Below the pieces are notes generated by a model. It ran no database searches. It worked only from the letters and a program-made list of their open reading frames with translations, and was not told the origin of the DNA. Positions 1,978-18,120 of a stretch of DNA of 64,000 nt are shown piece after piece. The stretch is taken from the NCBI GenBank assembly GCA_033964015.1, contig CM066915.1, forward strand, positions 3,955,575 to 4,019,574, in the 5' to 3' direction. Numbering within the stretch: the first letter of the stretch is position 1; each line of letters opens with the position of its first letter. Made by a program: the position numbers and the translations under genes. Source of the DNA: Scolanthus callimorphus. Its lineage: Eukaryota; Cnidaria; Anthozoa; Actiniaria; Edwardsiidae.

Positions 1978-1982
1978 CAGAG

Positions 1983-4470: not shown

Positions 4471-5357
4471 GTTTTAATAGTAAAAAGTATGATATTAATT
4501 TGATCAAAGAATATTTTGTAAAGCACATGACTGAGCAAGCTGGAGAGATTTTTGCGGCTAAGAAAGAGAATAGCTTTATGCTCCTCTCAACAGACCGGTT
4601 TAAATTTTTAGATGCAATGTCCTACTTAGCTCCAGGACTCTCTTTTGACAAGTGGTGTAAAGCGAACAACTGTGCAGTACAAAAACTGGTCTTTCCTTAC
4701 GAGTGGTTGGATAGTTATGAGAAGCTTTCTCATGTAGGCCCAGTGAAAAGAAAAGACTTTTACTCAAGCCTCCAACAGAAAATCACAGTGTCTCCTCAAG
4801 AATATGAAGAATTTAAGATCGAATTCCATAAGCGTGGTTGTATAACCATGATGGATTGGTTGAGGGAATATAACCTAGCCGACGTGGTTCCCTTCGTGGA
4901 AGCTTTGGAAAAGACACGTGAGCAATATTATCCAGACGAGATTGATATGTTGAAAGATGCTGTCTCCATCCCTGGAATTTCAATGAAATATGTTCTGAAC
5001 AAAGCCTTGGAAATGAAGAAACAAAATGAACCCGCTTTATATGCTCCTGGCCAACCTTGCTTTCACAAATGTGCTAAGACTTGTAGTGAAAAGGCTTGTA
5101 AAGAGTGCTCCAAGAAAAGGAAAGAATGTACCGCATGCCCTAAAAACAAGGCATATGAACTCTTGAAAACAGGCATGGTTGGAGGGCCTAGCATTGTTTT
5201 TACGCGGCATGCTGAAAAGGATAAGTCAAAGATTCGGTCACATAAATACAAAAAACCAAAACCTGCAAGTCTGTCGTTGGTTTTGATGCAAACAGTTTAT
5301 ATCTATACTGCTCGGGTCAAGAAATGCCCTGCGGTAAAGAGGAATTCATTGAGATAG
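4404..5357 (+). CDS. PolB segment: ExoII and TPR1-like middle region
   Basis: Frame 3 is open from 4404; the first listed start is at 4500. LGFNSKKYDINLIKEYF just upstream of that start is the ExoII block (N-x3-Y/F-D), so the segment begins before the apparent start. It runs through a long helical stretch and a Cys-rich patch (residues about 187-214 from 4500, pattern C-x3-C-x3-C-x4-C-x2-C-x6-C-x2-C) into GGPSIVFTRHAE, which precedes motif A in this family. The last about 35 codons look unlike a polymerase, and the expected motif appears in frame 2 instead, so the true change lies near 5250-5270. Confidence 0.7.
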
Positions 5358-5599
5358 AAAATCCAACGGATTCTGGAGATCTTCACAGGTTTTGTGATGC
5401 TGTTCTTACCGGCAAGCTTTTCGGTTTTTGTCAAGTGGATATCCATGTCCCTGAAAATCTCAGAGAAAAATTTGAAGAGTTTTCACCGTTGTTCGTTGTA
5501 GATAGTATTCCTCAAGCGTTAGTCCCCGAACATATGAAACAATACCAAAAAGACACTGGCAGAAAAACTCTAAAAGATTCAAAAAATTGCTTGGGGTAA
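5246..5599 (+). CDS. PolB segment: palm motif A
   Basis: Frame 2 is open from about 5246. GFDANSLYLY holds the first catalytic aspartate of the palm (motif A). The segment ends at 5599, shortly after an in-frame A-AAA-AAT heptamer (5580-5586, part of a run of six A). The family-like sequence continues in frame 1. The first ATG (5324) lies downstream of motif A and is not a plausible start. Confidence 0.65.
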   Translation: MQKTKTCKSVVGFDANSLYLYCSGQEMPCGKEEFIEIENPTDSGDLHRFCDAVLTGKLFGFCQVDIHVPENLREKFEEFSPLFVVDSIPQALVPEHMKQYQKDTGRKTLKDSKNCLG

Positions 5600-5919
5600 C
5601 GAGGGCAAAGAAAATATTGCTATATACCCCCCTACTGAAGTGGTACATAAATCATGGATTAGAGGTGACAGCTGTACACAAAATTTTAAAGTACCAATCA
5701 AGTCGACCTTTCAAATGGTTCCCTAAGGAGGTTAGCGATGCCCGAAGAGATGGAGATTCAAACCCTGCGTTAAAACAACTAGGCGACACACACAAGCTTA
5801 AGGGGAATTCATTCTACGGAAAAATGATCGAAGATCTTGAAAGACACACAAAAACAAGATTCACTCAATGTGAGGAAGAAGTTGATAAGGCATTCAGAAG
5901 CCCTTCTTTGAGGATTTAG
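5587..5919 (+). CDS. PolB segment: fingers motif B
   Basis: Frame 1. It contains AKKILLYTPLLKWYINHGL and then KLKGNSFYGKM, the K-x-x-G-N-S-x-Y-G motif B that binds the incoming nucleotide. The frame closes at 5919. Polymerase-like sequence continues in frame 3 from about 5890-5910, so the change falls in the CCCTTCTTT stretch. Confidence 0.65.
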   Translation: MLGVTRAKKILLYTPLLKWYINHGLEVTAVHKILKYQSSRPFKWFPKEVSDARRDGDSNPALKQLGDTHKLKGNSFYGKMIEDLERHTKTRFTQCEEEVDKAFRSPSLRI

Positions 5920-6440
5920 AAGTCATCAATGATACTTATGAATTGAAAGAAAGAAAACGACAGGTAACTATAAATCGACCTTATCAATGTGGCATTGCGG
6001 TATATCAATTGGCCAAACTACGAATGCTGGAGTTCTACTATGACTTTCTTGATAAATATGTTGATCGAAGGGATTTTGAGCTCATTCAAATGGACACAGA
6101 TAGTCTGTACATGGCCCTTTCGAATGAAAACCTTGATGCTATCATCAAACCTGAACTACAAGATGAATATTTCCAAAACGGGAAAGCTGAATTCTTATCT
6201 ACCTCAACCTATCATGATAGAACTCCAGGGTTATTCAAACTCGAGTTTAAGGGGATAAGAATGATTGCTCTTACCTCAAAATGCTATTATGCCGAAAGCG
6301 CAGACACGACAAAGTTTAGTTGCAAGGGCACTTCCCATAGACAAAATACTATGTCATGGGAAAGATACGACGAAGCTTTGAACGGGGCCCTTGACAAAGC
6401 CCAAAACACTGGCTTCAGGATTAATAAAATCAAATTGTGA
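5889..6440 (+). CDS. PolB segment: palm motif C
   Basis: Frame 3 is open from 5889 (ATG at 5943). Contains QLAKLRMLEFYYDFLDKYVD and MDTDSLYMAL, the DTDS motif C with the second catalytic aspartate pair. The following residues (KLEFKGIRMIALTSKCYY) fit the thumb-side region of protein-primed polymerases. The frame ends at 6440, about 30 codons before the probable true C-terminus in frame 2. Confidence 0.7.
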   Translation, partial: GIQKPFFEDLEVINDTYELKERKRQVTINRPYQCGIAVYQLAKLRMLEFYYDFLDKYVDRRDFELIQMDTDSLYMALSNENLDAIIKPELQDEYFQNGKAEFLSTSTYHDRTPGLFKLEFKGIRMIALTSKCYYAESADTTKFSCKGTSHRQNTMSWERYDEALNGALDKAQNTGFRINKIKL

Positions 6441-6529
6441 CATACACACAAAATAAATTAGGATTGAGCGCCTACTACGACAAACGCATTGTGGCAGCCG
6501 ACGGAATTCACACAGAGCCTTTGTATTAG
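6428..6529 (+). CDS. PolB segment: C-terminal block
   Basis: A short frame-2 block too small for standard ORF calling. It contains KLGLSAYYDKRIVAADGIHT, which resembles the conserved C-terminal signature of this polymerase family, and stops at TAG 6527-6529. This is the sixth frame change of the same sense. The integrase stop codon on the other strand begins at 6531-6533, so the two genes abut tail to tail. Confidence 0.6.
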   Translation, partial: NQIVTYTQNKLGLSAYYDKRIVAADGIHTEPLY

Positions 6530-6530
6530 C

Positions 6531-7520
6531 TCATTTCAATACAAAATTAGGCGGCAGCTCAGTATCCTCGTGAACAACCCGAAGCTCCTCCCTCACAAAC
6601 GATCTCTTTGGCCCATCTTCTAGATAATACAACACAGGCTGATTAGGTGGCACCACACTCCTAGAAATATTATATACCTCTAAGCTCCAGACAGGATCCG
6701 TAGCACGTCTACGTTCACCTCCCTCAAGTTCGCCTGGAGCATATAAATATCTTACCCTGACCCCAAGCGGCAGCCTCACTTCGTCAAGGCCAACAACTCG
6801 CTTATACTTTTGAGGATCAATTTCAACCTCTTTCAATCGAATAGCTTTTGCGGGCTCTTTACCGGTGATTCTAATCGGCTGGCTATTCAGAGTTTTCAAG
6901 ACAGCGGGCAATCGTTTAACCCATAGTCTAGACCTATCATCACTAATCATTTCCTGCGCATATTGATGAGAAAATAATCGTTCACCCAAAGTCCGATTTG
7001 CTCGCTCCACGAAAGCCTGTGCTCTATGGTTTCCTGTCTCGCTGCGTTGGATAGTAACTTTATATCTTTTCATAATAGTCGTCACATCTCCCATGAATTC
7101 CTTTCCAGGGTCAACAATTAATGTTTTTGGCCACTTTAATTTTCGAGAATAAATCTTACTAAACGCTCTTGCCACTTCACCACTTTCTTTTGAAGTTAAT
7201 GCTTCGGCATCCTTGTATCTCGAGGCGATATCAATCACCACCAACGCGTACTTATACGTTTTCCTACCAACTTTATCATGAGGTAGAAATAGCAAGTCTG
7301 CTTGGTGAATCTGATTTGGTTTATCCACAGTCCAATGTGGTCTGGGAATATACTTCGGAGGTGGTAAATAAATTTGCCATAGCGCCTGTTTCTCAAGCCA
7401 TTTTCTAACTTCGTCTTCACTCACTTTGGCTGCGCTTGCCAGTTTTGGAATGGCTGAATACCCTTTCCAGTACCCTCTGGTACTGTAGTATGTTTTTGAT
7501 AACATGCTTTCGTGATTCAT
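6531..7520 (-). CDS. Retroviral-type integrase (rve, DDE)
   Basis: A 329-aa protein that should insert the element into host DNA by strand transfer and make the short target duplication. The catalytic triad is visible: D75 in QADLLFLP, D137 in IVDPGKEFMG and E172 in FVERANRTLGE. The D137-E172 spacing of 35 residues is the classical D,D(35)E. Residues 1-60 look helical and lack an obvious HHCC zinc motif. The C-terminal 90 residues (from about 240) look like the beta-rich DNA-binding tail of Maverick integrases. The gene is intact. Its ATG (7518-7520) is 34 bp from the divergent capsid ATG, and the two promoters share that interval: a TTTAAA box on the minus strand at 7547-7542 lies 27 bp upstream. 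Confidence 0.93.
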   Translation of the reverse strand: MNHESMLSKTYYSTRGYWKGYSAIPKLASAAKVSEDEVRKWLEKQALWQIYLPPPKYIPRPHWTVDKPNQIHQADLLFLPHDKVGRKTYKYALVVIDIASRYKDAEALTSKESGEVARAFSKIYSRKLKWPKTLIVDPGKEFMGDVTTIMKRYKVTIQRSETGNHRAQAFVERANRTLGERLFSHQYAQEMISDDRSRLWVKRLPAVLKTLNSQPIRITGKEPAKAIRLKEVEIDPQKYKRVVGLDEVRLPLGVRVRYLYAPGELEGGERRRATDPVWSLEVYNISRSVVPPNQPVLYYLEDGPKRSFVREELRVVHEDTELPPNFVLK

Positions 7521-7553
7521 TTAAAGAATTGACTTTCTTTTTTTAAATAAACG
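7520..7553. promoter_or_regulatory. Divergent promoter between integrase and capsid genes
   Basis: Only 33 bp separate the two start codons. TTTAAAG at 7520-7526 serves the plus-strand capsid gene and its first T is also part of the integrase ATG. TTTAAA on the minus strand (7547-7542) serves the integrase. Each box therefore lies next to the opposite gene's start codon. Confidence 0.7.
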
Positions 7554-8801
7554 ATGGCACAAGCTATATCAGAAAACATTAACCCAAACAGGGTCCTACG
7601 AGAGCCTTTCGGCTTGAAGGCTGAATCGTCACTGAATCGAATTACATTAAATCCCTCTTCAGCTAGTCCCGGAGAGAGACTCTATATTAATATTCCGAAA
7701 CTGGCTGATAATTTGGTTATTGTTCCAAATACCCTAGCGCTGACCTTTAACATTGCTCTAACTGGTACGGATAAGCATGCGAATAATAGATTTGTCAACA
7801 ATTTGGCAGCATGCTTGAAATCAAGATATAAGATACATTTTGGTGGGGAAACAGTGCAGGATACTAATAGGTATGATTTATATAAGCTATATAGTGATCT
7901 TCATCTTTCTAAAAAGGAACGAGAAACTAGGCTCAAAGAAGGAATTTCCAGTCTCAACATGCGTAAACTGAGGGCTGGTGCAGGTGATGAAGATGATACA
8001 GATGCAGCAGAAGTAGCATTAGCAGCTGTATATAGCACAAAATATAGACTCCCTCTTGAGCATCCAATTATAGACAATCATGGAGTATTTTATCCAATGG
8101 CACTTGCTCAAGGGTTTATGTTTGAGGTTACTCTTCCAGAATCAAAAGATCTTACAATCACTTCAGATAAAACAAAACCATTTACATATGCTATTTCCAA
8201 TCTTGAGCTAGAATACCAAAGCATTTCAAGTGACTTCCTAGCAAGAGAGGCAAAGAGCACTTATCAAATTGGGAAGGGATTCTATTATGAAAATATTCAC
8301 CTTCATAAGACGTTCACGATTACCAAAGGGACGGATAGCATATTAAATGAGAATATTAACATCCCTCGTAGAAGTATGACAGGCATCCTAATGTTGTTTA
8401 CAACACCACATGCAGAGGGGGCACGCGATAGTGAAAGTTTTGTGAATCCAAGTATCACAAGTGTTAAAATTAACATCGATGGCGTACCAAACCGGTTATA
8501 TAGCAAAGGTATGGAAACCTCAGATTTTTATGATGCAGCTGTCAAACGGTTTGGATCGAGTGATAATATATCAATCAAGGATTTTTATAATGATAAATTT
8601 GCAATATGGATAGACCTACGAACATATCATGATGACTCTATACATGGTAATGGCTTACACATCAGTAATACAAGAGATGGAGTTCATCTAGAGATGAAAC
8701 GAACAGCTTCAGGGTCTGGTACCATTACCTGCTATATGTTCGTGGTAGCCGACGCGTTGATGAAGGTCATGAATTCCAACTTGCATTCAATCGTGTATTA
8801 A
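7554..8801 (+). CDS. Major capsid protein candidate (double jelly-roll, hexon-like)
   Basis: 415 aa, intact, the first gene of the rightward virion block and directly before the packaging ATPase, the usual place for the major capsid protein. The sequence is beta-rich with a SASPGERLYINIPK segment near residue 40 and a C-terminus CYMFVVADALMKVMNSNLHS that resembles adintovirus hexon ends. An acidic loop (GAGDEDDTDAAE, about 141-152) breaks the first half. Recognition rests on size, position and C-terminal pattern rather than a single diagnostic motif. A structure prediction showing two stacked jelly rolls would settle it. Promoter box TTTAAAG lies at 7520-7526. Confidence 0.75.
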   Translation: MAQAISENINPNRVLREPFGLKAESSLNRITLNPSSASPGERLYINIPKLADNLVIVPNTLALTFNIALTGTDKHANNRFVNNLAACLKSRYKIHFGGETVQDTNRYDLYKLYSDLHLSKKERETRLKEGISSLNMRKLRAGAGDEDDTDAAEVALAAVYSTKYRLPLEHPIIDNHGVFYPMALAQGFMFEVTLPESKDLTITSDKTKPFTYAISNLELEYQSISSDFLAREAKSTYQIGKGFYYENIHLHKTFTITKGTDSILNENINIPRRSMTGILMLFTTPHAEGARDSESFVNPSITSVKINIDGVPNRLYSKGMETSDFYDAAVKRFGSSDNISIKDFYNDKFAIWIDLRTYHDDSIHGNGLHISNTRDGVHLEMKRTASGSGTITCYMFVVADALMKVMNSNLHSIVY

Positions 8802-8828
8802 AAAGAACAACTGTTGTAATACAAAATT
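8794..8828 (+). promoter_or_regulatory. Intergenic module before the packaging ATPase
   Basis: A weak box (TATTAAAAAGA) overlapping the capsid stop codon and a perfect 7-bp inverted repeat TGTATTA/TAATACA (8794-8800/8817-8823), followed by ATG at 8829. Variant of the common module without AATAAA. Confidence 0.5.
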
Positions 8829-9455
8829 ATGGAAGAGTTACGAGAAAAAGTCCCTTTTCATTGTATTATAACTGGACCGACAAATTGTGGAAAAACAAAA
8901 TACCTCACGGAACAGCTCCGAGGACCGTTCCGCAATGTGTTTGAATACATTGTTCTCATATGTCCAACTTATGCAAAAAATAAGACCTATCATAGATTTG
9001 CTCACGGAGATAAACGTTTCTTGGTATTATCACCAGATGCTAGTAACATTGATGAGATTAACGAGTTATTGAAGGATTGCTCACAACTTTTTTCTGGTAC
9101 AAATACGTTACTTATTTTGGATGACTGTGCTGTATCGAAAGATCTTAAGCAACGCTCGAACAAGTTTATAGACCTTGCATTCTCAGGGAGACACGATGGA
9201 TTATCAGTGTGGGTATTGACGCAACAATTAACATCCATAGCAAAGCCCTTCCGTGACAACGTCGCCTGCGTGGTTACATTCCATAATCCATCTCAAGTCG
9301 GCACAAAAACATTGTTTGAAGATTACGGAGGAGATTTAGACGTTGAGACTCGTAAAAAGTTTGCGGAACTGCTTAAAACTGAAAAATATTCCAGACTCTG
9401 TTTCTGTTTACGATATCCATTCCAAAGTTATTTAGAGATTCCTACTACGCAGTGA
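8829..9455 (+). CDS. Genome-packaging ATPase (FtsK/HerA-like)
   Basis: 208 aa, intact. Walker A is GPTNCGKT (residues 16-23) and Walker B is LLILDDC (94-100). The following FSGRHDGLSVWVLTQQLTSI resembles the sensor/arginine-finger stretch of small viral packaging ATPases (A32/FtsK group). It would pump DNA into preformed capsids. It sits immediately downstream of the capsid gene. An inverted repeat TGTATTA/TAATACA (8794-8800, 8817-8823) lies between the two genes, overlapping the capsid stop codon. Confidence 0.9.
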   Translation: MEELREKVPFHCIITGPTNCGKTKYLTEQLRGPFRNVFEYIVLICPTYAKNKTYHRFAHGDKRFLVLSPDASNIDEINELLKDCSQLFSGTNTLLILDDCAVSKDLKQRSNKFIDLAFSGRHDGLSVWVLTQQLTSIAKPFRDNVACVVTFHNPSQVGTKTLFEDYGGDLDVETRKKFAELLKTEKYSRLCFCLRYPFQSYLEIPTTQ

Positions 9456-9490
9456 TTTAAAAACATCTATGTTTTATTATAAAATAAGAT
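9454..9490 (+). promoter_or_regulatory. Intergenic module before the 173-aa gene
   Basis: GATTTAAAAA at 9454-9463, then an imperfect hairpin (ATCT..TTTTAT/ATAAAA..AGAT), ATG at 9491. It directly follows the ATPase stop codon. Confidence 0.65.
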
Positions 9491-10012
9491 ATGGCAAGCA
9501 TTGAAGATTATATCGAAGAAAAAGAGGTCGCTGAACCAAAAGAAAATGATATTGAAGTCAAACGAGAATCACTGGCTATTCTCGCGTCTCTTGGGACTAC
9601 AAAGGAATTTCTAGGTGTTGAGATGAATCTTGGTGATATCAAGAAACTCTCATCAAAAGACGTTGAAAAATATTATAATCGTTACCAGACAGTCTTAGGC
9701 AAGAAGGTAACAGGTGGATTAGTAGAATCTGCACTTCAAGCAGTGTCTCACATCATCTCCTACGTGGTTCCTGTAGATGACGCTGAAGCGCTTTGCAAAG
9801 ACTTGCAGAACGATGAGTTGGTAAAACGTGAACTTTCAAACTTTGCAGGTCTCTTGGTATTGAAGGGTGGAAGATTGGTAGCACTTGCTAGCGGTCTCTT
9901 TCAGGTTGCTAAGCATGTTAAACTAACACCTTCACAGGAGACTTCCAACAAAATTCAAGAACTTCCTAGCACAACTGAGCAGACAACTGAGCAAACTACT
10001 AAGCATAACTGA
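9491..10012 (+). CDS. Uncharacterised virion-block protein, 173 aa
   Basis: I do not recognise a domain. The N-terminal 35 residues are acidic. A central amphipathic region (about 95-145) has two hydrophobic stretches, ALQAVSHIISYVVPV and NFAGLLVLKGGRLVALASGLF. The tail is a low-complexity Thr/Gln repeat (TTEQTTEQTT). A GATTTAAAA box is 37 bp upstream. Its place between ATPase and membrane proteins suggests a structural or assembly role, which is inference. Confidence 0.6.
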   Translation: MASIEDYIEEKEVAEPKENDIEVKRESLAILASLGTTKEFLGVEMNLGDIKKLSSKDVEKYYNRYQTVLGKKVTGGLVESALQAVSHIISYVVPVDDAEALCKDLQNDELVKRELSNFAGLLVLKGGRLVALASGLFQVAKHVKLTPSQETSNKIQELPSTTEQTTEQTTKHN

Positions 10013-10021
10013 GCATGATAT

Positions 10022-10057
10022 GATTTAAAGATACTTTATTATTGAAAATAAAGAATC
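10022..10057 (+). promoter_or_regulatory. Intergenic module before the 138-aa gene
   Basis: GATTTAAAG at 10022-10030, CTTTATT/AATAAAG inverted repeat (10034-10040/10047-10053), ATG at 10058. AATAAA within the right arm could be the poly(A) signal of the upstream gene. Confidence 0.7.
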
Positions 10058-10474
10058 ATGTCTGAAGAAGTTGTTGAACAAATTACAAAGGAGCCTGAAA
10101 AGAAGAGAGTGACTAAAGAGAAAGACCCTAAAAAGGTTGCCGCTGGTAGGAAACTCGCAGAATATAATAAGAAGGCGAAAGAAGCACTTGCTAGGGAAAT
10201 GAAGCGTGAAGCGGAGACGAGTCCAGAAGAAGCTACGGCGGAAGAATCTGGATCACAAGCTTGGATTCCAGAGCTATCTTTTACAACTGTACTGTCTATA
10301 GTTGGCATAGGGTTTACGGCATTTGATATGTTTATGCGGTACTACAAAAACAGAGTAGTTGATTTATCGCAAGTTCCGACTCATGTACCAGAATCATTCA
10401 AAGAACCACCCCCCTCAAAAATTCCTATCTCAACGAGTGCCGTCAAGCAAACTCCGAGAATAGGCATGTTGTAA
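10058..10474 (+). CDS. Lys/Glu-rich protein with one membrane segment, 138 aa
   Basis: The first 60 residues are highly charged and probably helical or coiled-coil (KKRVTKEKDPKKVAAGRKLA). One hydrophobic segment (about 75-92, LSFTTVLSIVGIGFTAFDMF) is followed by a proline-rich tail. The family is not recognised. The upstream module is textbook for this element: GATTTAAAG at 10022-10030, CTTTATT/AATAAAG inverted repeat, ATG at 10058. A basic N-terminus plus membrane anchor would suit an internal membrane or core-associated virion protein, but this is a guess. Confidence 0.6.
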   Translation: MSEEVVEQITKEPEKKRVTKEKDPKKVAAGRKLAEYNKKAKEALAREMKREAETSPEEATAEESGSQAWIPELSFTTVLSIVGIGFTAFDMFMRYYKNRVVDLSQVPTHVPESFKEPPPSKIPISTSAVKQTPRIGML

Positions 10475-10477
10475 GTA

Positions 10478-10510
10478 ATTTAAAGATTTTATTTGCGTAT
10501 AAATAAAATC
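10478..10510 (+). promoter_or_regulatory. Intergenic module before the 74-aa gene
   Basis: ATTTAAAG at 10478-10485, then a perfect 10-bp inverted repeat GATTTTATTT/AAATAAAATC with a 6-nt loop. The right arm ends at the base before ATG 10511. Confidence 0.75.
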
Positions 10511-10735
10511 ATGTCAACTGAAAACAAACTTGTGAAAACGGTTACCGATTCAGCCGTCATTATCGGATTAGCCGCTGGAGTTGGATACCTTGGTAAAAAG
10601 GCTATGAAAGAATCATTTATCAACGATCCCTCATCGAGTGTTACAAACTATGCTAAATGGGTCGCTGTCCTGTCCGGTAGTATGTATTTGAAAGATTATC
10701 TGGAAACACAAAAGATTTTGCCAAAACCACTTTAA
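10511..10735 (+). CDS. Small hydrophobic protein, 74 aa
   Basis: Start chosen at 10511 rather than the upstream 10493 because the TTTAAAG box (10479-10485) and a perfect 10-bp inverted repeat (10485-10494/10501-10510) end exactly before it. Two hydrophobic stretches are present: residues about 14-28 (DSAVIIGLAAGVGYL) and about 49-60 (AKWVAVLSGSMYL). Family unknown. The stop codon overlaps the TTTAAAG box of the next gene (10731-10737), showing how tightly the genes are packed. Confidence 0.6.
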   Translation: MSTENKLVKTVTDSAVIIGLAAGVGYLGKKAMKESFINDPSSSVTNYAKWVAVLSGSMYLKDYLETQKILPKPL

Positions 10736-10758
10736 AGATTTTATATATTGATTAATAA
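10731..10758 (+). promoter_or_regulatory. Intergenic module before the 144-aa gene
   Basis: TTTAAAG at 10731-10737 overlaps the previous stop codon. AATAAATGG places AATAAA across the start codon at 10759. The hairpin is weak here. Confidence 0.65.
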
Positions 10759-11193
10759 ATGGCAACAATAGCAATGATGATTGGTGGAGCTGTATTGAAT
10801 GCGACAACGTTCGTTGGTGGCTCATATCTCGCAAAATACCTAAGTGGAACGTCTTCAGACGCGGAGCGAATAAGACACGACAAGGCTATAGAAAAATATC
10901 AAAAAGATTATGCCTCATACCAGGAAAAGAGACAGAAACTCATTGATTGGTACTCGCAACAGCAGGATGCTGAACACCGGGCTTCGCAGGATTTGTCGAA
11001 TACCGATGAAGCTTTGAAATTGTATAGTCAAACGCATCATGATTCGAGAGGCAAGCCCCTCGATCTCCCCTTAGGAGATGAACCAAAATTCTCTGATTAT
11101 TATAGACCTAGTAGCAACCAAAAGATGGGGGAGATGGCATATGTAGGTGGTGGTATGTTGGCAATGGGTTATATGGCTAGTAAATTCTTTTAG
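10759..11193 (+). CDS. Virion-block protein with hydrophobic ends, 144 aa
   Basis: An N-terminal glycine-rich hydrophobic segment (residues 1-28, MMIGGAVLNATTFVGGSYL), a charged helical middle (35-75, coiled-coil-like KYQKDYASYQEKRQKL) and a C-terminal hydrophobic segment (128-144, YVGGGMLAMGYMASKFF). I recall similar proteins as recurrent but unnamed in adintovirus-like loci; this is unverified. It could be a minor capsid or membrane-linking protein. A TTTAAAG box is 28 bp upstream of the ATG. Confidence 0.6.
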   Translation: MATIAMMIGGAVLNATTFVGGSYLAKYLSGTSSDAERIRHDKAIEKYQKDYASYQEKRQKLIDWYSQQQDAEHRASQDLSNTDEALKLYSQTHHDSRGKPLDLPLGDEPKFSDYYRPSSNQKMGEMAYVGGGMLAMGYMASKFF

Positions 11194-11215
11194 GTGTAGC
11201 AATTTAGGCGTATCA

Positions 11216-11249
11216 ATTTAAAGATTCTTTATTCAAAAAATAAAGAATC
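11216..11249 (+). promoter_or_regulatory. Intergenic module before the split gene, best hairpin
   Basis: ATTTAAAG at 11216-11223 and a perfect 11-bp inverted repeat GATTCTTTATT/AATAAAGAATC (11223-11233/11239-11249) with a 5-nt loop, immediately followed by ATG. Confidence 0.78.
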
Positions 11250-11435
11250 ATGGATGTAATTGACTCAGAAAAAATTCCTTTAATTGACCCGGTAGATCCA
11301 GAAGGTTCTGGTGGTGAGAATATTCCAATGCAACCTATTGGAGGTCACTCTGAACCTCCAACATCGACTAGTTGGTCCTCTACAGAAACTACGCATGCAG
11401 AGACATCGTTTATAGATGGAGGGATGAGGAAATAA
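11250..11435 (+). CDS. N-terminal segment of a split virion-block gene
   Basis: 61 codons, acidic and Pro/Ser/Thr-rich. The start is firmly placed: ATTTAAAG at 11216 and a perfect 11-bp inverted repeat (GATTCTTTATT/AATAAAGAATC) whose right arm ends one base before the ATG. The frame closes at 11435 but frame 2 continues with a plausible protein (next entry). The change has the same -1 sense as those in PolB. Most likely one gene with a one-base loss near 11420-11430. Confidence 0.55.
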   Translation: MDVIDSEKIPLIDPVDPEGSGGENIPMQPIGGHSEPPTSTSWSSTETTHAETSFIDGGMRK

Positions 11436-12145
11436 TTAGAGCTAGATTACTTTGGGTAAAAATTCGCGATAAATTCCCCGAATGTGATCATACTAAATTT
11501 AAAGCTCGCATTGGTAAAAATAATCGAGTGGTTGTGATGCTGAAAGACAGGGATACAGAATACCCTCTTTTCAAGCTAAATGGGGAAATTAATGATAAAA
11601 TACCGAAAGGTATAAAAGATGCTCTCGGTCCTACTGCAGAAGAAGTTGCTAGGGCTAAAGATGAAGAAATTTCAAAACGAAAAGAGCGAGTAAAAGACTT
11701 AGAGACAAGACGTGAGCAGGTACCTGAAAATCAGAGACCAACTATAGATCATCAGATTGATGAAGAACAGGAGGAGATCGACCAACTCGAACGGGAGAAT
11801 GAAGCCATAGAAGAGCGAATGTCCTTGCGAGATAGAGTCAAGGCTATTTTTAAAAAGTACGGCTTTACAGTCGTTGCTGTCGTTTCAGCAGTAGGTGTTG
11901 TTATTGGTGTGATTGTATCTAATCTAAAAAAAGGTTTGACCAGTGTTGCAAAGGGCGTTGGCAACGGCTTGAAAGCAATTGGTAAAAAGATTGGAGAGAT
12001 ATTACCTGGAATGGTAGGTGCTATTGCTAGTTTTATCTTCAAAACAGCGGGGGAGGTTATTGGATTTTTAGGCAAAAATGCTTGGCTGCTGATAGTAGCC
12101 GTGGTTCTCTACCTTGTTGAACAATTTAAAAAGAAGAGACGCTAA
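11372..12145 (+). CDS. C-terminal segment of the split gene: coiled coil plus membrane segments
   Basis: The open frame starts at 11372, but the first about 18 residues look like out-of-frame sequence. Protein-like sequence begins near 11425 (EEIIRARLLWVKIRDKF). It continues with a charged coiled-coil region (codons about 95-155 of this frame, rich in E/R/K) and three hydrophobic stretches: FTVVAVVSAVGVVIGVIV, MVGAIASFIF and NAWLLIVAVVLYLVEQF. The end is basic (KKKRR). This resembles membrane-active minor virion proteins in layout only; no family is claimed. The last codons contain the TTTAAAA box of the next gene (12125-12131). Confidence 0.6.
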   Translation: MVLYRNYACRDIVYRWRDEEIIRARLLWVKIRDKFPECDHTKFKARIGKNNRVVVMLKDRDTEYPLFKLNGEINDKIPKGIKDALGPTAEEVARAKDEEISKRKERVKDLETRREQVPENQRPTIDHQIDEEQEEIDQLERENEAIEERMSLRDRVKAIFKKYGFTVVAVVSAVGVVIGVIVSNLKKGLTSVAKGVGNGLKAIGKKIGEILPGMVGAIASFIFKTAGEVIGFLGKNAWLLIVAVVLYLVEQFKKKRR

Positions 12146-12154
12146 GTAAAAAAC
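12125..12154 (+). promoter_or_regulatory. TTTAAAA box before the penton-like gene
   Basis: TTTAAAA at 12125-12131 lies in the last codons of the upstream gene, 30 bp before ATG 12155. No hairpin. Confidence 0.55.
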
Positions 12155-12817
12155 ATGTCAACGTTTCTATCTATCACGATGCTAACTCCGGAAACAAGAG
12201 TTTATCTGGCGCCACCGTTGGAGCGCATAAAAGAGATACAACTTTTAGATTGTCACATTCCTAAACCGTGGGTAAAGTTCAAGGACCCACAAAAGGTTTA
12301 CAAGTTTTCATCTCAAAAAAATGTGGAAGAAAAGATATTTTTTACTATTCCCCCGGGGAATTACACATTGAAAACACTTCAACAAATCTTCCTCAAAGAT
12401 GAAGAAAGCTCCAAGCTTACAATTATTATGACTGGACAAGGATATTTTCTATATTCCAACAAGACCGTTAATCTTAGGCTTTCCGAAAAACTCTCAAAAA
12501 AGCTCGGTGTACCTGAAAAGATATCGCCAAATAAATATTATCCAATAACATGGATACCTGACAAGCCATTAAACGTGTTTTGCGATCTCGTAGAGTCAAA
12601 GTCTTCATATTCTAATAAGATCCCTAGCGACGAAAATGTAGAAGTTACTCCATCAAATTTGTTGGCTGTTGTGCCATCTCAAAGTCATCCTTCTCTTCGA
12701 GGGGCTTGCCTCTCGAATCCAATCAACTACTTTACTTTGTTGATTTTAGATGAAAAGGGAAGAAAGCCTAACTTCAATAACGAACCTATTCGAATTCATT
12801 TAAAGCTTTCCTGTTGA
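12155..12817 (+). CDS. Penton-like minor capsid candidate (single jelly roll)
   Basis: 220 aa, predominantly beta-prone. The pattern IPPGNYTLKTLQ (about 68-79) and the C-terminal ILDEKGRKPNFNNEPIRIHLKL resemble the penton/minor capsid proteins of Polintons and adintoviruses, where a conserved late strand with D-x-x-G-x-x-x-x-F is typical. It would occupy the fivefold vertices. Assignment is by overall pattern, size and position, so a structure prediction is needed. The ATG lies 30 bp after a TTTAAAA box located inside the preceding gene. Confidence 0.6.
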   Translation: MSTFLSITMLTPETRVYLAPPLERIKEIQLLDCHIPKPWVKFKDPQKVYKFSSQKNVEEKIFFTIPPGNYTLKTLQQIFLKDEESSKLTIIMTGQGYFLYSNKTVNLRLSEKLSKKLGVPEKISPNKYYPITWIPDKPLNVFCDLVESKSSYSNKIPSDENVEVTPSNLLAVVPSQSHPSLRGACLSNPINYFTLLILDEKGRKPNFNNEPIRIHLKLSC

Positions 12818-12826
12818 TTAGTAAAA
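12798..12826 (+). promoter_or_regulatory. TTTAAAG box before the glycine-rich membrane protein
   Basis: TTTAAAG at 12799-12805 within the 3' end of the penton-like gene, 28 bp before ATG 12827. No hairpin. Confidence 0.55.
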
Positions 12827-13465
12827 ATGGAAGACTACAATAGTATTTATCCACAAGTGCCTCAAAATGGGGAAAATTTCAGACTTCAAAAGTCGTGTGA
12901 GGTTCTACAAGGTCTTGAAAGAGAGGTTACTCATTATGAGCGTGTACGTAAGAAATACGCAAGATTGAGGAAACTGATCGTATGGTCAACAGGTGGAATC
13001 TCTGTCATATTATCCGGTAGTGGATTAGCCCTCAGTTTGACAGGCTTTGGAGCCGCAGTAGGTGCTCCTATTGGCGGAGTTGGTGCTCTGTTCGGTATTG
13101 TTTCTACCACTGTTGGAGTCAAATTATCACGAAAGATATCTAAGCATGAAAAAACATCACAATTAGCAAGAGCAAAGGTGAACACCATACAGGATCTCGT
13201 CTCAAAGGCTCTTCAGGACAACACAATTTCTGACCAAGAGTTTTCGCTAATCCTAGCAGAAAAGGAAAAGTTTGAAAAACTAAAGGTTGATATTCGCCAA
13301 AAGCTCGGCTGGAGGAGGGAAAAAAGAAGATTTGACTCAGATACGAAGGGAGGTTCGTGCGGAACTTTTAAAGGAACTCACCGTTCCCGCACGGTAAAAC
13401 TATCATTCGAGAGAACACCTGTAGGGTGGATTTATGAGATTGGTTGCTACAAGGATCGTCAGTGA
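12827..13465 (+). CDS. Glycine-rich membrane protein with coiled coils, possible frame change near its end
   Basis: 212 aa. Residues 20-47 are a charged helix, 48-95 a glycine-rich hydrophobic region with two probable membrane passes (STGGISVILSGSGLALSLTG, VGAPIGGVGALFGIVSTTVG), and 96-160 a helical region (KISKHEKTSQLARAKVNTI). The last about 55 residues are compositionally different. Frame 3 over about 13300-13397 reads as a charged helical tail ending at TAA 13395-13397, so a one-base change of opposite sense to those in PolB is possible here. Function unknown. TTTAAAG lies at 12799-12805 within the previous gene. Confidence 0.6.
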   Translation: MEDYNSIYPQVPQNGENFRLQKSCEVLQGLEREVTHYERVRKKYARLRKLIVWSTGGISVILSGSGLALSLTGFGAAVGAPIGGVGALFGIVSTTVGVKLSRKISKHEKTSQLARAKVNTIQDLVSKALQDNTISDQEFSLILAEKEKFEKLKVDIRQKLGWRREKRRFDSDTKGGSCGTFKGTHRSRTVKLSFERTPVGWIYEIGCYKDRQ

Positions 13466-13501
13466 TTTAAAAACATCTTATTCTACTTACAAAATAAGAT
13501 G
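13464..13501 (+). promoter_or_regulatory. Intergenic module before the 526-aa gene
   Basis: GATTTAAAAA at 13464-13473 and inverted repeat CATCTTATT/AATAAGATG (13474-13482/13493-13501). The right arm contains the start codon, so a hairpin in the RNA would sequester the ATG. Confidence 0.7.
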
Positions 13502-15079
13502 TCGTTACTCGATGAATTTAAAAAGGTATATCCAAATGCAGATTTATCAAAATTCCATGAAGATAAAGACTGGTATGCGGAAGGCTTATTCGACCCTAGG
13601 TATATCGGGTGGTATAATAAAAACCATTTCTGGTATGGAATTTGGGCAAAGGATCCTAATGCTGCTTCTGTGACTAAGCTTAATGACATTCCCATAGAGG
13701 ATCGTATAGAGTTATTCAATGATTTGGGTATAGCGGCTCCTAAATTACAATTCCCGGATAGTTTGAAATTAACAACTAAAAAATACCCTATTCCAGCGAT
13801 AGATTTTGATACCACCGCTTCAGATATCACGTCCTTGTTAACAGATCTGGATATTTATGTATCCACTAAGCAAAAGTTCTCTGTGATGATGAGAGACATT
13901 TTCAAGAAGACTACTATAACGTTCAAGTCTGCAAAACAGTCGAGACGGTGGCTAAATGGTCCTAATTTTAGTTATTGGCCGCAACAACTCAACTTTGCAG
14001 TCTGGTGTGCTACATCAGGTTGTGGGATTAGTTTACATGAGGCAAAAAGCTATCCCCCTGTTGTTTATAGTTTTATTAAATTTCATGCCTATTTCACTGT
14101 GAGGAGGATTCTAAAGGAATTGGGATGTCCTCTACCTGACGACCGCGTTTTTAATCAAACAGACAATCCGTACAACAAGGTGGTGTATCAGAGGTTGTGT
14201 AATGAGTTTGGCCTAACAAACCCTGATTTTAGATGGAAAGGAGGGAGAAATTTTGGACTTGGTGATTTATTCTTAGATTATGGTTCTGGATATGGTCCGA
14301 AGCACATTGGAGGTGGATATCAGAATGTTCATGTTATAAGAGGTTATGACAAAGAAGCTGATAAATGGCCTGATAAATTGAATCTTTTCTCTGATGAGGG
14401 TGGAACTTACAATAACGGTAAATTAGTATCGTTCATTCGTAATGATGATCACGGTGGAAGGCAGTACAATTGGTTCGTCCCTGTGAATGGTCATGGTTTG
14501 ACTAGAGCGGGTCTAGGCCGGTTGAATAGGTCGCTTGAAGCGTTTGTTTACAGTGTATTAGGCGCACAAGTTAATGTTAGATCAAGCATAATCGGAAATA
14601 GCGGTTCCGCTGTTGAAGCACAGCAGGAGTTTTTGACCTTATTTGAAAGTGCCGTCATTGAAGAAAATATATCCAAAAGCGTGCAACGCTATCAGCTCGC
14701 TGTACAAGAGGCGAAGTTACGATTGAATTTGGCTATTGGACCGGGAATTTGGCTCATGCCGGCTAACTTGTTAATCAATACTGAAAGTGTGACCGGTTAT
14801 AATAACAAGTTGTTGAAAGCTACAAGTGATATGAGTTTTGGGGTGAATGATTCGCTAAATGAAGAATCAAAACATGTTGGAATTAAACATAACTTGGGCT
14901 CTTCAAAGGTAAAGTTACCGCACGCGTACGCACCTGTAACGCACACTGAGACGAAGCCAAAAACAAATCCAGACGTGACAAAGCCTATTATTGAAAAACC
15001 CGTGACTCCGCAGCATGAAACTAATCTAATAGTGTTGACAGCTGTCGCGGGTGGATTAGCGTGGTTTCTATTTCGATGA
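13499..15079 (+). CDS. Large tail-anchored virion-block protein, 526 aa
   Basis: Intact and the longest gene of the virion block. Aromatic-rich N-terminal half with WPQQLNFAVWCATSGCGISL (about 159-178) and RFNFGLGDLF-like glycine/aromatic stretches. A Pro/Thr-rich stalk (about 480-508) is followed by one C-terminal membrane segment (NLIVLTAVAGGLAWFLF, about 509-525). I recall related unnamed proteins in cnidarian Maverick-like loci, unverified. The layout (ectodomain-stalk-anchor) suggests a surface or membrane-linked virion protein, but no function is established. The start is set by GATTTAAAAA at 13464 and an inverted repeat CATCTTATT/AATAAGATG whose right arm contains the ATG. Confidence 0.65.
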   Translation: MSLLDEFKKVYPNADLSKFHEDKDWYAEGLFDPRYIGWYNKNHFWYGIWAKDPNAASVTKLNDIPIEDRIELFNDLGIAAPKLQFPDSLKLTTKKYPIPAIDFDTTASDITSLLTDLDIYVSTKQKFSVMMRDIFKKTTITFKSAKQSRRWLNGPNFSYWPQQLNFAVWCATSGCGISLHEAKSYPPVVYSFIKFHAYFTVRRILKELGCPLPDDRVFNQTDNPYNKVVYQRLCNEFGLTNPDFRWKGGRNFGLGDLFLDYGSGYGPKHIGGGYQNVHVIRGYDKEADKWPDKLNLFSDEGGTYNNGKLVSFIRNDDHGGRQYNWFVPVNGHGLTRAGLGRLNRSLEAFVYSVLGAQVNVRSSIIGNSGSAVEAQQEFLTLFESAVIEENISKSVQRYQLAVQEAKLRLNLAIGPGIWLMPANLLINTESVTGYNNKLLKATSDMSFGVNDSLNEESKHVGIKHNLGSSKVKLPHAYAPVTHTETKPKTNPDVTKPIIEKPVTPQHETNLIVLTAVAGGLAWFLFR

Positions 15080-15218
15080 ATGCATTCCATTCATACTTTT
15101 ACGACGTAGCAACAAGCAAGTTGAAAAGTGGATTTGATGTTTACTTTTTAGAGGCCCGTATCTAACGTCGCTCAGGAATGTGATTACGTCAATGTAAATT
15201 CGATAGTTTTGAGGTATT

Positions 15219-15242
15219 AATACGTGCAGTTCATCACGTATT
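15219..15242 (+). promoter_or_regulatory. Inverted repeat before the coiled-coil gene
   Basis: AATACGTG, 8-nt loop, CACGTATT, ending 9 bp before ATG 15252. There is no TTTAAA box nearby, unlike the virion genes. The rest of the 172-bp gap after 15079 holds nothing else I recognise. Confidence 0.5.
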
Positions 15243-15251
15243 GTTTGTTCA

Positions 15252-15599
15252 ATGATTGAGCAAGACGCTACAGAACTAGAATATGATTCCTTCGATTTAA
15301 CAAACATTTCACAAAGAAATGGTTTTCAACTTCCAGCACCAAGAAAAAGAGAAAATCTAAACGACTTTTTGTCGAATCTTACGATGAAAGACACCATTCC
15401 GAAGCAAGATGTTAGGAAAATTTGGCTGAGAAAGACGGAAGAACGAGACAAAGCTCTGAGACAACTAAGAGACGCCAAATCGAAGATTGAATACTGGATG
15501 GCAAAGGCAAGAACTGCAGATGAAATGGTTGCTAAATGTGATGAAGACCTGCAAAAGCTTGATGCTCTCATAATGGCTGACATTTTAGCTAATCGTTGA
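15252..15599 (+). CDS. Coiled-coil protein, 115 aa
   Basis: The N-terminal third is acidic and polar. Residues about 55-112 form a long heptad-like helix (KIWLRKTEERDKALRQLRDA). Family not recognised. It lacks the TTTAAA box of the virion genes. Instead a perfect 8-bp inverted repeat AATACGTG/CACGTATT (15219-15226, 15235-15242) ends 9 bases before the ATG, so it may belong to a different expression class. Its transcript would run into the hammerhead ribozyme 41 bp past the stop codon. Confidence 0.6.
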   Translation: MIEQDATELEYDSFDLTNISQRNGFQLPAPRKRENLNDFLSNLTMKDTIPKQDVRKIWLRKTEERDKALRQLRDAKSKIEYWMAKARTADEMVAKCDEDLQKLDALIMADILANR

Positions 15600-15639
15600 A
15601 AGACGATTGAACAAATTTTTGTAAAGACTCTGCATAGTG

Positions 15640-15701
15640 GAGTCGTCAATACCTGTGAAACTAGGTATTCTGATGAGGCTTGATATTAGCCGAAACGACT
15701 C
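15640..15701 (+). ncRNA. Hammerhead ribozyme, type III (open stem III)
   Basis: All core elements are present in order. Stem III 5' strand GAGTCGT (15640-15646); cleavage-site C at 15647 (GUC); stem I AATACCT/AGGTATT (15648-15654/15663-15669) closed by an 8-nt loop; core CTGATGA (15670-15676); stem II GGCT/AGCC (15677-15680/15688-15691) closed by a 7-nt loop; core GAA (15692-15694); stem III 3' strand ACGACTC (15695-15701), fully complementary to the 5' strand. Predicted self-cleavage is after 15647. It lies in the plus-strand sense of the flanking genes, between the stop at 15599 and an AATAAA at about 15815, so a read-through mRNA would be cut in its 3' UTR. Confidence 0.93.
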
Positions 15702-15826
15702 TTAAACCAAAGCAGCTGGCTGTCTCATGACCGGAAAACAATTCCAACTAGATGAGTCACAAGGTAAATTTTCGTAATGTAATTCTGACTTGTGTTACAT
15801 AACCTAGTGTTTTTAATAAATTAATC

Positions 15827-15851
15827 TTCATAACACGGTTCATGTTATGAA
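15827..15851. repeat. Palindrome flanking the small gene, left copy
   Basis: TTCATAACA, a 7-nt loop, then TGTTATGAA. The loop is nearly the reverse complement of the loop in the copy at 16267-16291. The adjacent CAACACAAACAATGAC (15857-15872) also recurs in inverted form beyond the right copy, so about 50 bp is repeated in inverted orientation. Confidence 0.8.
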
Positions 15852-15921
15852 ATCGCAACACAAACAATGACATGTTAATTTTGAAAAATGACTTAAGGAG
15901 ATACGTATTCAATAATAAAAG

Positions 15922-16251
15922 ATGGAGTTCCCAACAGCAGAACAATTCAACGAAAGTAAAAGTCAACATCAGACAATTACAAAATGGAGAGATGTGCCTG
16001 AGGGTATTATTTACCGCATCGAAAGTACAGATAAGATTGAGACGAAATTTGGAGAGCAATTAGTTGCTGATTTGAAAGACAAAGAGGGAAATGAATTTAA
16101 AACATGGCTTCCTTCTCGTCTTTGCATTGAACTCAAAGATTACGGTTGGCAAGGTAAAATCGCCTTTGTCAAACCGCTCGGGTTGAAACCTAAAATAGCA
16201 AATCCTAGTCAGAACTATTGGGACTATGAGATTATGTGGGTTGATGTGTAA
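15922..16251 (+). CDS. Small protein, possibly OB-fold / ssDNA-binding-like, 109 aa
   Basis: Compact, soluble-looking and beta-rich: WRDVPEGIIYRIESTDKI, then KFGEQLVADLKDKEGNEFKTW, then YGWQGKIAFVKPLG. The alternation and the conserved-looking 'Lp-G-Y-x-I' and 'TKFGE' segments suggest an OB-like barrel of the kind seen in small Maverick proteins proposed to bind DNA. This is inference without a diagnostic motif. The start is preceded by CTTAAGGAG (15892-15900) and AATAAAAG. The gene is flanked by inverted copies of a palindrome (15827-15851 and 16267-16291) and faces the methyltransferase tail to tail. Confidence 0.55.
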   Translation: MEFPTAEQFNESKSQHQTITKWRDVPEGIIYRIESTDKIETKFGEQLVADLKDKEGNEFKTWLPSRLCIELKDYGWQGKIAFVKPLGLKPKIANPSQNYWDYEIMWVDV

Positions 16252-16266
16252 ATTGTTTGTAATGAT

Positions 16267-16291
16267 TTCATAACATGAAACGTGTTATGAA
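16267..16291. repeat. Palindrome flanking the small gene, right copy
   Basis: TTCATAACA-N7-TGTTATGAA, the same 9-bp stem as at 15827-15851. It sits in the 137-bp gap between two convergent genes (stops at 16251 and 16389), so it may act as a transcript end signal. It could also be the edge of a transferred gene cassette. Confidence 0.8.
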
Positions 16292-16388
16292 ATTTCTAGC
16301 TCAATCATTGTTTTGTTGTGTGTGCTTTTAAATTTCTAACTCACCTTCAGATAAGCTCAGACACGGCTCATCTTCAGACATTCTGTCA

Positions 16389-17825
16389 TCACTCGGCTGT
16401 GAGATGTTTTTCAGTAGGTTGTTGTAGTGTTGCGTGACACACTTTACACTGAGACTTTCGTCTGTTGTGTTCACATATTTGAGACCCTTTACATGTCTTA
16501 CAAAAGAATTTCTGGATTCCATGAATACATATTCCTTTCCCGTTGCAGTCTTTGCATAGATAACTCACTCGTTTATGTTCACAGAAGCTACCACCGTTGC
16601 ATTCCTTACAGCGCGACTTTTGGTGGTTGTGGGGGCAAATCTGTGATCCATGACAATCTCTGCAATAATATTTTATTTTACCGTGTAGACATTTGTAATC
16701 ATTCTTGAGAGTTACGTCTGAGGGCGTGTTAGAAACTGGATTTTGTGGCATCAACTCGAGAATTATCTCTTTAATTACGTTAACACTCATCGTATTACCA
16801 ATCTGTTTCTTCATTTGTTTGTTACTAACTACTTGGACAAATTCATCAGAAAATCCCTGTAAGCGACGTAATTCTATGGTATTTGCATAACGGTGTTTCG
16901 ACACACACCACATACTTCCTTTAGTCGTAATACACGAAGCATATTTGTCTGCATTGACATACTTTCGGGTTCCGGATACTCCAAAAGCAAACTCGATAAA
17001 AACTTTGCCGTCAGCTAGACGATCCAGAATTTTTTGATGTCGTTCAGTCGCTGGATGTACATAATTATCGGAATGATCCACATAATCTGCAACATTTTCC
17101 AAAGCTTTATGTTTTGGCCAGTTAAATGTTTCTTTTGTTCCAATTATATACAGTCTTGGTCGATTATGTGGAATGCCGTAGTCTCTAGTGTTAAGTAGTT
17201 TCCATTGAACAGTGTATCCTTTGAGCTTTATTAATTCTCCCCAAATTATCTTCCATGTATTACCTTTATCATGATTGAGTAGTCCACGTACGTTCTCCAA
17301 AATGAAATACTTTGGTTGCTTTTCTTGAATAACTTTTAAACACCCCCAGAATACGTTACCCGATTTGTGATCAAAACCTTCCCGATAACCGGCAGTAGAA
17401 AAAGGTTGGCACGGGAAACCACAGACATATAAGTCAATATCCGGTACTGAGGAAATATCACGCTTTGTTATATCACCAAAAAGAATTTCAGGATAATAAT
17501 TAGCTTTAATTGATTGTATACAGTACTTATCAATCTCTGACGAGAAGACATGCTTAAATGGAATTCCTAGTTGGAGCAGTGCTTGTATAGGTGCTTCAAT
17601 ACCACTACAGTCTGTACCAACACGTAGTTTTTCTTTACACTGTTCGTAAACCGGTGCTGGAATGGGTCTTTGCACTGGTATATTGGTCCTTGGTGCTGGA
17701 ATGGGTCTTTGCACTGGTATATTACCCAAAGCTTCGATGAGTTCAGCTTTACGTAATTTATAATAGCCTTTAATGTGTCGCTCTTTGGCGAGGGCTTTCA
17801 GTTGTTTCACTGTTTGTCTCTCCAT
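16389..17825 (-). CDS. SAP / C5-cytosine DNA methyltransferase / Cys-His zinc-repeat protein
   Basis: 478 aa. Residues 1-34 are the TIR-encoded SAP domain, identical to the start of the PolB-side protein. Residues 35-58 are a linker containing a duplicated IPVQRPIPAP. The methyltransferase follows: motif I TDCSGIEAP (71-79), motif II SSEID (95-99), catalytic PCQ with C139, ENV (177-179), RDYGIPHNRPRLY (214-226), RRLQGF (320-325) and QIGNTMS (341-347). The order is standard for a C5-MTase that methylates cytosine with S-adenosylmethionine. Residues 379-463 hold about five repeats of an 18-residue C-x-H-x6/7-C-x2-C unit, presumably zinc-binding. An overlapping frame (to 16328) could encode an acidic tail after another frame change. 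It likely modifies element or host DNA. Confidence 0.92.
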   Translation of the reverse strand: MERQTVKQLKALAKERHIKGYYKLRKAELIEALGNIPVQRPIPAPRTNIPVQRPIPAPVYEQCKEKLRVGTDCSGIEAPIQALLQLGIPFKHVFSSEIDKYCIQSIKANYYPEILFGDITKRDISSVPDIDLYVCGFPCQPFSTAGYREGFDHKSGNVFWGCLKVIQEKQPKYFILENVRGLLNHDKGNTWKIIWGELIKLKGYTVQWKLLNTRDYGIPHNRPRLYIIGTKETFNWPKHKALENVADYVDHSDNYVHPATERHQKILDRLADGKVFIEFAFGVSGTRKYVNADKYASCITTKGSMWCVSKHRYANTIELRRLQGFSDEFVQVVSNKQMKKQIGNTMSVNVIKEIILELMPQNPVSNTPSDVTLKNDYKCLHGKIKYYCRDCHGSQICPHNHQKSRCKECNGGSFCEHKRVSYLCKDCNGKGICIHGIQKFFCKTCKGSQICEHNRRKSQCKVCHATLQQPTEKHLTAE

Positions 17826-18085
17826 TTTTTATTATAGTATCTATTTCTTTAAATCATTTCAATTCTAAATTTTCTCGAAAGAGAGGGATTTCAGTCACCT
17901 TGTTGAACAACAGTCAGACAAGTCTCAGACAAGTCTCAGGCAAGTCTAGACAAGTCTCGGGCAAGTCTCAGAGATGTGTGCTATGGAGGCTTTTTGAAAA
18001 ATTCGGCCAGGAGGCTTATGGAGACTTATTGAGACTTTTTTAAGGCTTTTTGAAATTGGGCCTGAAACTCCTCCACCCTAGTAGT
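17725..18085 (-). repeat. Right terminal inverted repeat (361 bp)
   Basis: Reverse complement of the left repeat. It supplies the promoter, ATG (17825) and first 33-34 codons of the methyltransferase gene, which reads inward on the minus strand. Followed by CAGAG (18086-18090). The two repeats lose identity immediately after the third G of the last shared triplet, exactly where the two proteins begin to differ. Confidence 0.95.
17826..17855 (-). promoter_or_regulatory. TIR promoter module for the methyltransferase
   Basis: Mirror copy of 2213-2242. TTTAAA (17853-17848 on the minus strand) lies 28 bp before the ATG at 17825. Confidence 0.75.
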
Positions 18086-18120
18086 CAGAGAAATTGCGGA
18101 AATGGTTTTAATAGACCAGG

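Follow-up and report, generated by a model that had tools for sequence, protein, structure and literature searches.

A compact type III hammerhead motif linked to an accessory gene in a Maverick/adintovirus-type element of Scolanthus callimorphus

The 64,000-nucleotide stretch of Scolanthus callimorphus DNA that was analyzed for this report (referred to below as the window) contains a 62-nt sequence that, judged by its sequence and structure, is almost certainly a real hammerhead ribozyme, for which self-cleavage is predicted. The motif resides in an integrated virus-like element, shortly after the end of a rare accessory gene designated here as ORF115. We put at about even the chance that it is a cis-acting ribozyme of the 3' untranslated region (UTR) that would trim the ORF115 mRNA ahead of its poly(A) signal.

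The original prediction had placed the ribozyme inside an element of the Maverick/adintovirus type, and this setting is supported by inverted repeats and by genes for an integrase, a capsid protein and an ATPase. The relevant features of the element are:

1982..18086, integrated Maverick/adintovirus-type element, 16,105 bp (bounded by inverted repeats; encodes an integrase, a capsid protein and a packaging ATPase)
1982..2346, + strand, left terminal inverted repeat, 365 bp, 100% identical to the right
6531..7520, - strand, rve-type integrase (PF00665, 36.2 bits, cut-off 32.6)
7554..8801, + strand, major capsid protein (PF16903, 18.7 bits, below the cut-off of 24)
8829..9455, + strand, packaging ATPase, A32-like (PF04665, 46.1 bits, cut-off 22.8)
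13499..15079, + strand, conserved 526-aa gene 5' of the cassette
15192..15720, + strand, cassette of ORF115 and hammerhead, absent as a block from most copies compared
15252..15599, + strand, ORF115, rare accessory gene with the ribozyme in its putative 3' UTR
15815..15820, + strand, first AATAAA after the end of ORF115, located beyond the ribozyme
15922..16251, + strand, next gene, 109 aa, with a leader that by eye resembles that of the genes starting in the terminal repeats
16389..17825, - strand, convergent cytosine methyltransferase gene
17722..18086, - strand, right terminal inverted repeat, 365 bp, 100% identical to the left

Terminal inverted repeats, an rve integrase, a capsid protein and an A32-like ATPase are among the features by which the Maverick/Polinton (adintovirus) group is recognized, and all of them are present here. 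A search of the protein collection gave 524 homologues for the capsid protein (PF16903 was found on 6 among the 120 listed), and the capsid gene has 102 matches in the same genome, about half of them 94-100% identical; the 526-aa gene has 1756 homologues at E<=0.001 among 8000 candidates scored. The polymerase region (3235-6440) of the window copy is split into several ORFs in different frames, and the three ORFs scanned from it gave no polymerase match in Pfam. Maverick/Polinton elements are associated with a 6-bp target-site duplication; no exact duplication was found at the ends of this one copy, where GGCAGA stands before 1982 and AGAGAA after 18086. No relatives were confirmed in IMG/VR with the ATPase, capsid and 526-aa proteins as queries, and no capsid relatives were found in GTDB contigs.

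Some other features of the element and its surroundings are recorded here as separate observations. The terminal repeats (2243-2346 and 17722-17825) hold the start and first codons of both terminal genes, and two different terminal-gene proteins thus share one N-terminal Rho_N-like segment. Elsewhere in the same genome (C148:186238-191433), three capsid-gene matches that share one orientation and are spaced by 1,980 bp form a tandem array. Window regions 20322-20789 and 20963-22767 contain two identical 177-nt repeats with tRNA-like sequences, separated by 291 bp, after which come 3.9 copies of a 461-bp tandem repeat (all within 20322-22767).

Direct reading, the predicted fold and a descriptor scan all bear out the earlier description of a complete type III hammerhead with every core position in place and stems of 7, 4 and 7 bp. 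The motif is composed as follows, with notes on three other copies (L024, L026 and L046) that are described below:

15640..15701, + strand, type III hammerhead ribozyme (core, stems, RF00008, fold, descriptor scan)
15640-15646 with 15695-15701, stem III, 7 bp, with a possible eighth pair, G-U
15647, C at H17, in the GUC cleavage triplet
15647..15648, + strand, predicted cleavage site between C15647 (H17) and A15648, from hammerhead geometry
15648-15654 with 15663-15669, stem I, 7 bp (8 bp in the minimum-energy fold)
15655..15662, + strand, loop I, with a T to C substitution in L024 and L026
15670-15676, CTGATGA core box
15677-15680 with 15688-15691, stem II, 4 bp
15681..15687, + strand, loop II, TGATATT, the same in the divergent L046 and with A to G in L024 and L026
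15692-15695, GAAA core box, its final A paired within stem III

The CUGANGA ... GAAA core, the NUH cleavage triplet and three helices with stem III open are all found in the motif, which by its sequence is a member of the structural type III class, outside of Rfam's curated set. At minimum energy it folds as a hammerhead (-19.3 kcal/mol, z -3.99), and none of 200 shuffled sequences was equally stable. A descriptor that specifies the core and three stems with at least 13 pairs matched the motif (20 pairs) and nothing else on both strands of the 64-kb window; in a simulated background of 10.24 Mb of first-order Markov sequence, also scanned on both strands, it found two matches with at least 13 pairs and none with at least 18. 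The covariance-model search that had been proposed as a check gave a divided result. The Rfam model RF00008 aligned with the motif from its first to its last position (41.0 bits, E 2e-7 for the 701 nt searched), and this score falls below the gathering score of 48.5 bits, which is the curators' automatic cut-off and stands outside the structural definition of a hammerhead. A gathering-level Rfam scan of the whole window listed two tRNA matches only, and no hammerhead. The score under the cut-off is what might be said for a chance resemblance to a hammerhead, which we consider extremely improbable, since no equally good match occurs in the simulated sequence and since the genome holds seven copies, one of them divergent with compensatory changes, which speaks strongly against chance.

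The genome to which the window belongs (597 Mb in 302 contigs) was searched with window positions 15600-15921, which gave 40 matches, and loci were fetched for 30 of these, the window's own included. By the strict descriptor the hammerhead is present in six of the 30 loci. Four of these close hammerheads are identical and the other two (L024, with an RF00008 score of 38.2 bits, and L026) have the same two changes, one in each of loops I and II, whose joint occurrence bears on a putative tertiary contact between these loops. The remaining 24 loci match only 3' of the ribozyme, and their window-like sequence skips ORF115 and the ribozyme as a block, which marks the two as a presence/absence cassette with several types of empty joint. 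Positions 15189-15191 are joined to 15721 in 18 loci, 15246 to 15794-15798 in three, 15191 to 15704 in one (L030) and 15073 to 15704 or 15711 in two (L031 and L032); the unrelated bases inside these joints are few in some loci and many in L031 and L032. A 68-nt query around the hammerhead, which would miss much more diverged copies, had seven matches in the whole 597-Mb genome, namely the six close copies and one at C1:10365378 in L046. Absence of the ribozyme from all related elements, a possibility raised with the original prediction, is thereby excluded, as six further copies exist, each 3' of an ORF115 homologue.

A descriptor scan of loci L047-L078 (147,157 bases, mostly the surroundings of capsid genes) gave no match, the L046 motif being split there at the border of L077 and L078. 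Covariance-model negatives on large inputs are uninformative, since cmscan of 20 combined loci left the hammerhead unreported even where it is present; the same is true of an RF00008 search of the whole genome, which scored only 68 out of 97,644 candidates and gave no match, either at the seven established places or in 14 control genomes. A long hairpin in L026 (465-552, - strand) has a weak match to an Rfam microRNA family (31.4 bits, cut-off 99) and is probably an inverted repeat.

A protein search of the same genome with ORF115 gave 11 matches at seven places, and all seven lie directly upstream, in sense, of one of the seven hammerheads; the gene is otherwise rare, with three homologues found in a collection of 5.8 billion proteins. 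This co-occurrence of gene and ribozyme suggests, at the level of sequence, that the virus uses the ribozyme to cut ORF115 mRNA. Among the six close copies, ORF115 is open in the window's own and interrupted in the other five, whereas the ribozyme is intact in all six, and selection on the gene-ribozyme pair is therefore unproven from the close copies. The interrupted genes, and the fact that cassette-less copies outnumber cassette-bearing ones, might be expected if the ribozyme were a functionless passenger, an old hammerhead that hitch-hikes beside ORF115 and is neither cut nor used; but the core and the overall pairing are kept in all seven copies, even in the one with a changed stem I, and we think it rather improbable that the motif is such a relic. 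A 10-nt regulatory pairing between the ORF115 start and the 3' UTR, considered as a separate candidate, was equaled in 3 of 1000 shuffles and kept in two of the five other close copies, and was dropped.

The element in L046 is related to that of the window in its integrase (82%), capsid protein (58-66%, in two overlapping pieces), ATPase (96%) and 526-aa gene (86%) and, both on the other strand, in the C-terminus of its methyltransferase (76%) and its 109-aa gene (81%); its ORF115 homologue is open, encodes 117 aa and is 31% identical. Stem III, the core and loop II of the hammerhead are preserved in L046, and the cleavage triplet is GUA. Pairs 3 and 4 of stem I show compensatory changes (T-A to C-G and A-T to G-C), pair 5 a one-sided change (C-G to T-G) and stem II a single change from G-C to G-U; pair 7 of stem I is lost, and the stem I helix extends beyond an internal loop. 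MAFFT misplaces this stem I, so that the pairs were instead read by position, and stem I is likewise misaligned in the RF00008 match (17.6 bits, E 0.84). The GUA triplet, a longer spacing between gene and ribozyme, a hairpin in between and an ATTAAA ahead of the ribozyme indicate that the gene-ribozyme arrangement is not conserved in detail. L046 also contains, at ~1461, a 24-nt perfect inverted repeat, by which sequence around the start codon of the ORF115 homologue can pair with that immediately 5' of the hammerhead.

Between the window and L009, 91 of 533 sites differ at the 3' end of the 526-aa gene and 51 of 131 in 15761-15900, in contrast to 5 of 337 in ORF115 and none of 62 in the hammerhead; recombination between diverged backbones would be the simplest reading of these sequence differences. 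Compared with the window, L024 shows 41 differences in 616 sites and L026 shows 53 in 614 across the module around the motif (15080-15639 plus 15702-15760); within the hammerhead each shows 2 in 62, both in loops. By our own estimate, made on related copies, the chance that all 47 sites of stems and core stay unchanged is ~0.04 for L024 and ~0.01 for L026, which hints that the hammerhead may be under constraint in these loci, the statistics being weak and the two copies related. Toward the end of the 526-aa gene (window 14900-14960), 23 of 60 sites differ from L007 or L008, two loci that are otherwise nearly identical to the window around this patch, which is hypervariable or recombined.

A block that is exchanged between element backbones might also derive from the capture of an ORF-bearing retrozyme-, viroid- or delta-like agent, whose ribozyme would process circular or mobile RNA. 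Type III hammerheads occur in such agents (PMC7936874), and the 24-nt inverted repeat flanks the ORF in L046. However, instead of the two ribozymes or repeats that would bound such a unit, the window has one hammerhead with no direct repeat of at least 25 nt around it, and instead of a rod-like, highly paired RNA the 528-nt module shows no more structure than its shuffled versions do (z -0.71; z -2.3 for the L046 module). Moreover, no copies of the motif or the gene were found in the same genome outside of the seven places, and capture of a retrozyme or viroid is, in our judgment, unlikely. The possibility of an unrelated nested insertion, also raised with the original prediction, is only partly excluded; the lack of a second ribozyme, of such a direct repeat and of a viroid-like fold argues against it, and on the other side the hammerhead and ORF115 move together as one exchangeable unit.

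The location of the motif after a stop codon and ahead of the next AATAAA is as first described. The last position of ORF115 is 15599, which leaves 40 nt up to the motif. From the stop codon to the ribozyme the window has neither AATAAA nor ATTAAA, and the first AATAAA follows at 15815. As its leader resembles that of the terminal-repeat genes, the 109-aa gene probably has its own promoter, which would leave the ribozyme in the upstream transcript. By eye, an ATTTAAA-type box lies ~25-40 nt 5' of the ATG at 9 of the 11 gene starts in the cluster 7554-15252, and ORF115 is without one.

Two further sequence features of the intergenic regions were observed. An ATTTAAA/CTTTAAA box, a candidate viral promoter, precedes 12 of 16 start codons inspected by eye at a distance of ~25-40 nt (ATGs at 2243, 7554, 9491, 10058, 10511, 10759, 11250, 12155, 12827 and 13499 on the + strand and at 7520 and 17825 on the - strand), and ORF115 has a CRE-like TTACGTCA at 15184 in its place. 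Short perfect intergenic hairpins occur at 10485-10510, 11223-11249, 13473-13502, 15219-15242, 15827-15851 and 16265-16293, one of which overlaps the following ORF by 4 nt. In all, eight hairpins with stems of at least 8 bp occur in the element, these six included, compared to a mean of 2.8 and a maximum of 6 in 20 shuffles. The intergenic hairpins may be viral 3'-end or termination signals.

The earlier functional suggestions were that the ribozyme cuts a viral mRNA in its 3' UTR, separates co-transcribed genes or makes uncapped or tailless RNA, and among these the 3'-UTR role fits best. ORF115 and a type III hammerhead 40 nt past its stop codon would then constitute a portable two-part cassette. 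The transcript would fold and self-cleave after C15647, 5' of the first AATAAA available to it, leaving the coding piece with a short tailless 3' end (a 2',3'-cyclic phosphate) 48 nt past the stop codon and releasing the downstream piece, with a 5'-OH, ahead of the next gene. Cleavage might set the stability or export of ORF115 mRNA, or make a 3' end without the host poly(A) machinery, and it would also block read-through into the following genes. This role in the 3' UTR is favored by a core and stems complete far beyond chance, by the sense-strand location 3' of ORF115 in 7/7 copies, by the compensatory changes in L046 with stem III, core and loop II kept, by the confinement of the L024 and L026 changes to loops while the surrounding module diverges, by the lack of a poly(A) signal before the ribozyme in the window and by the Clec2 precedent described below (PMC6155905). 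It is disfavored by the sub-gathering Rfam scores and the lost seventh pair of stem I in L046, by the absence of the cassette from 24 of the 30 loci, by the different arrangement in L046 and by the interruption of ORF115 in most of the close copies.

The main rival to a role in the ORF115 3' UTR, ahead of the functionless passenger, is that the ribozyme serves as a read-through insulator, cutting RNA of the capsid cluster before it extends into the following gene and into the methyltransferase gene on the opposite strand and so limiting antisense (double-stranded) RNA. In the window the motif indeed closes the + strand cluster, ahead of the methyltransferase gene that converges on it, and in L046 it directly precedes the 3' end of that gene. 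An insulator would not, however, be expected to be missing from most of the copies compared, in which both flanking sequences remain, or to accompany ORF115 at every place where the gene was found, and we regard insulation as a minority possibility.

The motif can be compared with hammerheads from several other sources. In most type III motifs helix I has ~6-7 bp and a loop of 6-8 nt, and helix II has 4 bp and usually a loop of 4 nt (PMC7936874). The type III hammerheads of plant satellite RNAs, viroids and retrozymes resemble the window motif in the open stem III, the core, the GUC site and the sizes of helices I and II; loop II is 7 nt here instead of the usual 4, and the plant ribozymes cut multimeric circular RNAs, whereas a single copy lies behind a gene in this dsDNA virus-like element. 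Long type III hammerheads, with a long helix I, an internal loop and an end hairpin, occur in animal delta-like circular RNAs and some insect genomes (PMC7936874); the long helix I of L046 is reminiscent of these, but the window motif is compact, and neither a delta-like ORF nor a rod-like fold was seen with it. The mammalian Clec2 genes, which encode proteins, likewise have a type III hammerhead in the 3' UTR (PMC6155905), although there the motif is split by a very large helix I and belongs to host genes, and here it is compact and virus-borne. The haloarchaeal viruses HF1 and HF2 offer a hammerhead beside a gene in a linear dsDNA virus, with an mRNA 5' end within 3 nt of the cleavage site (PMC3088659), but these are lytic viruses of archaea and not of eukaryotes, with a hammerhead variant beside a helicase gene. 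Penelope-like elements, Terminons and animal retrozymes are eukaryotic mobile elements with hammerheads (PMC6431247; PMC7229834); they are retroelements, mostly with type I motifs in animals, in contrast to the single internal type III copy in a DNA virus-like element. No report of a hammerhead in the Maverick/Polinton/adintovirus group was found among the titles and abstract openings listed by searches of open-access literature.

Hammerhead DNA patterns were also run against IMG/VR, where a loose pattern matched five loci, of which only L003 is hammerhead-like by eye, and two other patterns gave no matches; one pattern had no matches in GTDB. The L003 sequence (~9230 in IMG/VR contig IMGVR_UViG_3300007539_000002) is, by eye, an apparently complete hammerhead with a closed stem III.

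If true, a compact hammerhead that accompanies one particular gene of a dsDNA virus-like element in a eukaryote would place this ribozyme in a new setting and would offer a way to approach the role of genomic hammerheads in general. With seven copies in the genome, of which three are almost the same in the ribozyme region, the proposal is testable by ordinary RNA-seq of 5' and 3' ends. For the integrating dsDNA viruses of the Maverick/adintovirus group, it is possible, and here we are more tentative than about the role in the ORF115 mRNA, that they carry a mobile cassette of gene plus ribozyme, swapped between viral backbones, in which the hammerhead would replace or override 3'-end formation by the host for a single accessory gene.
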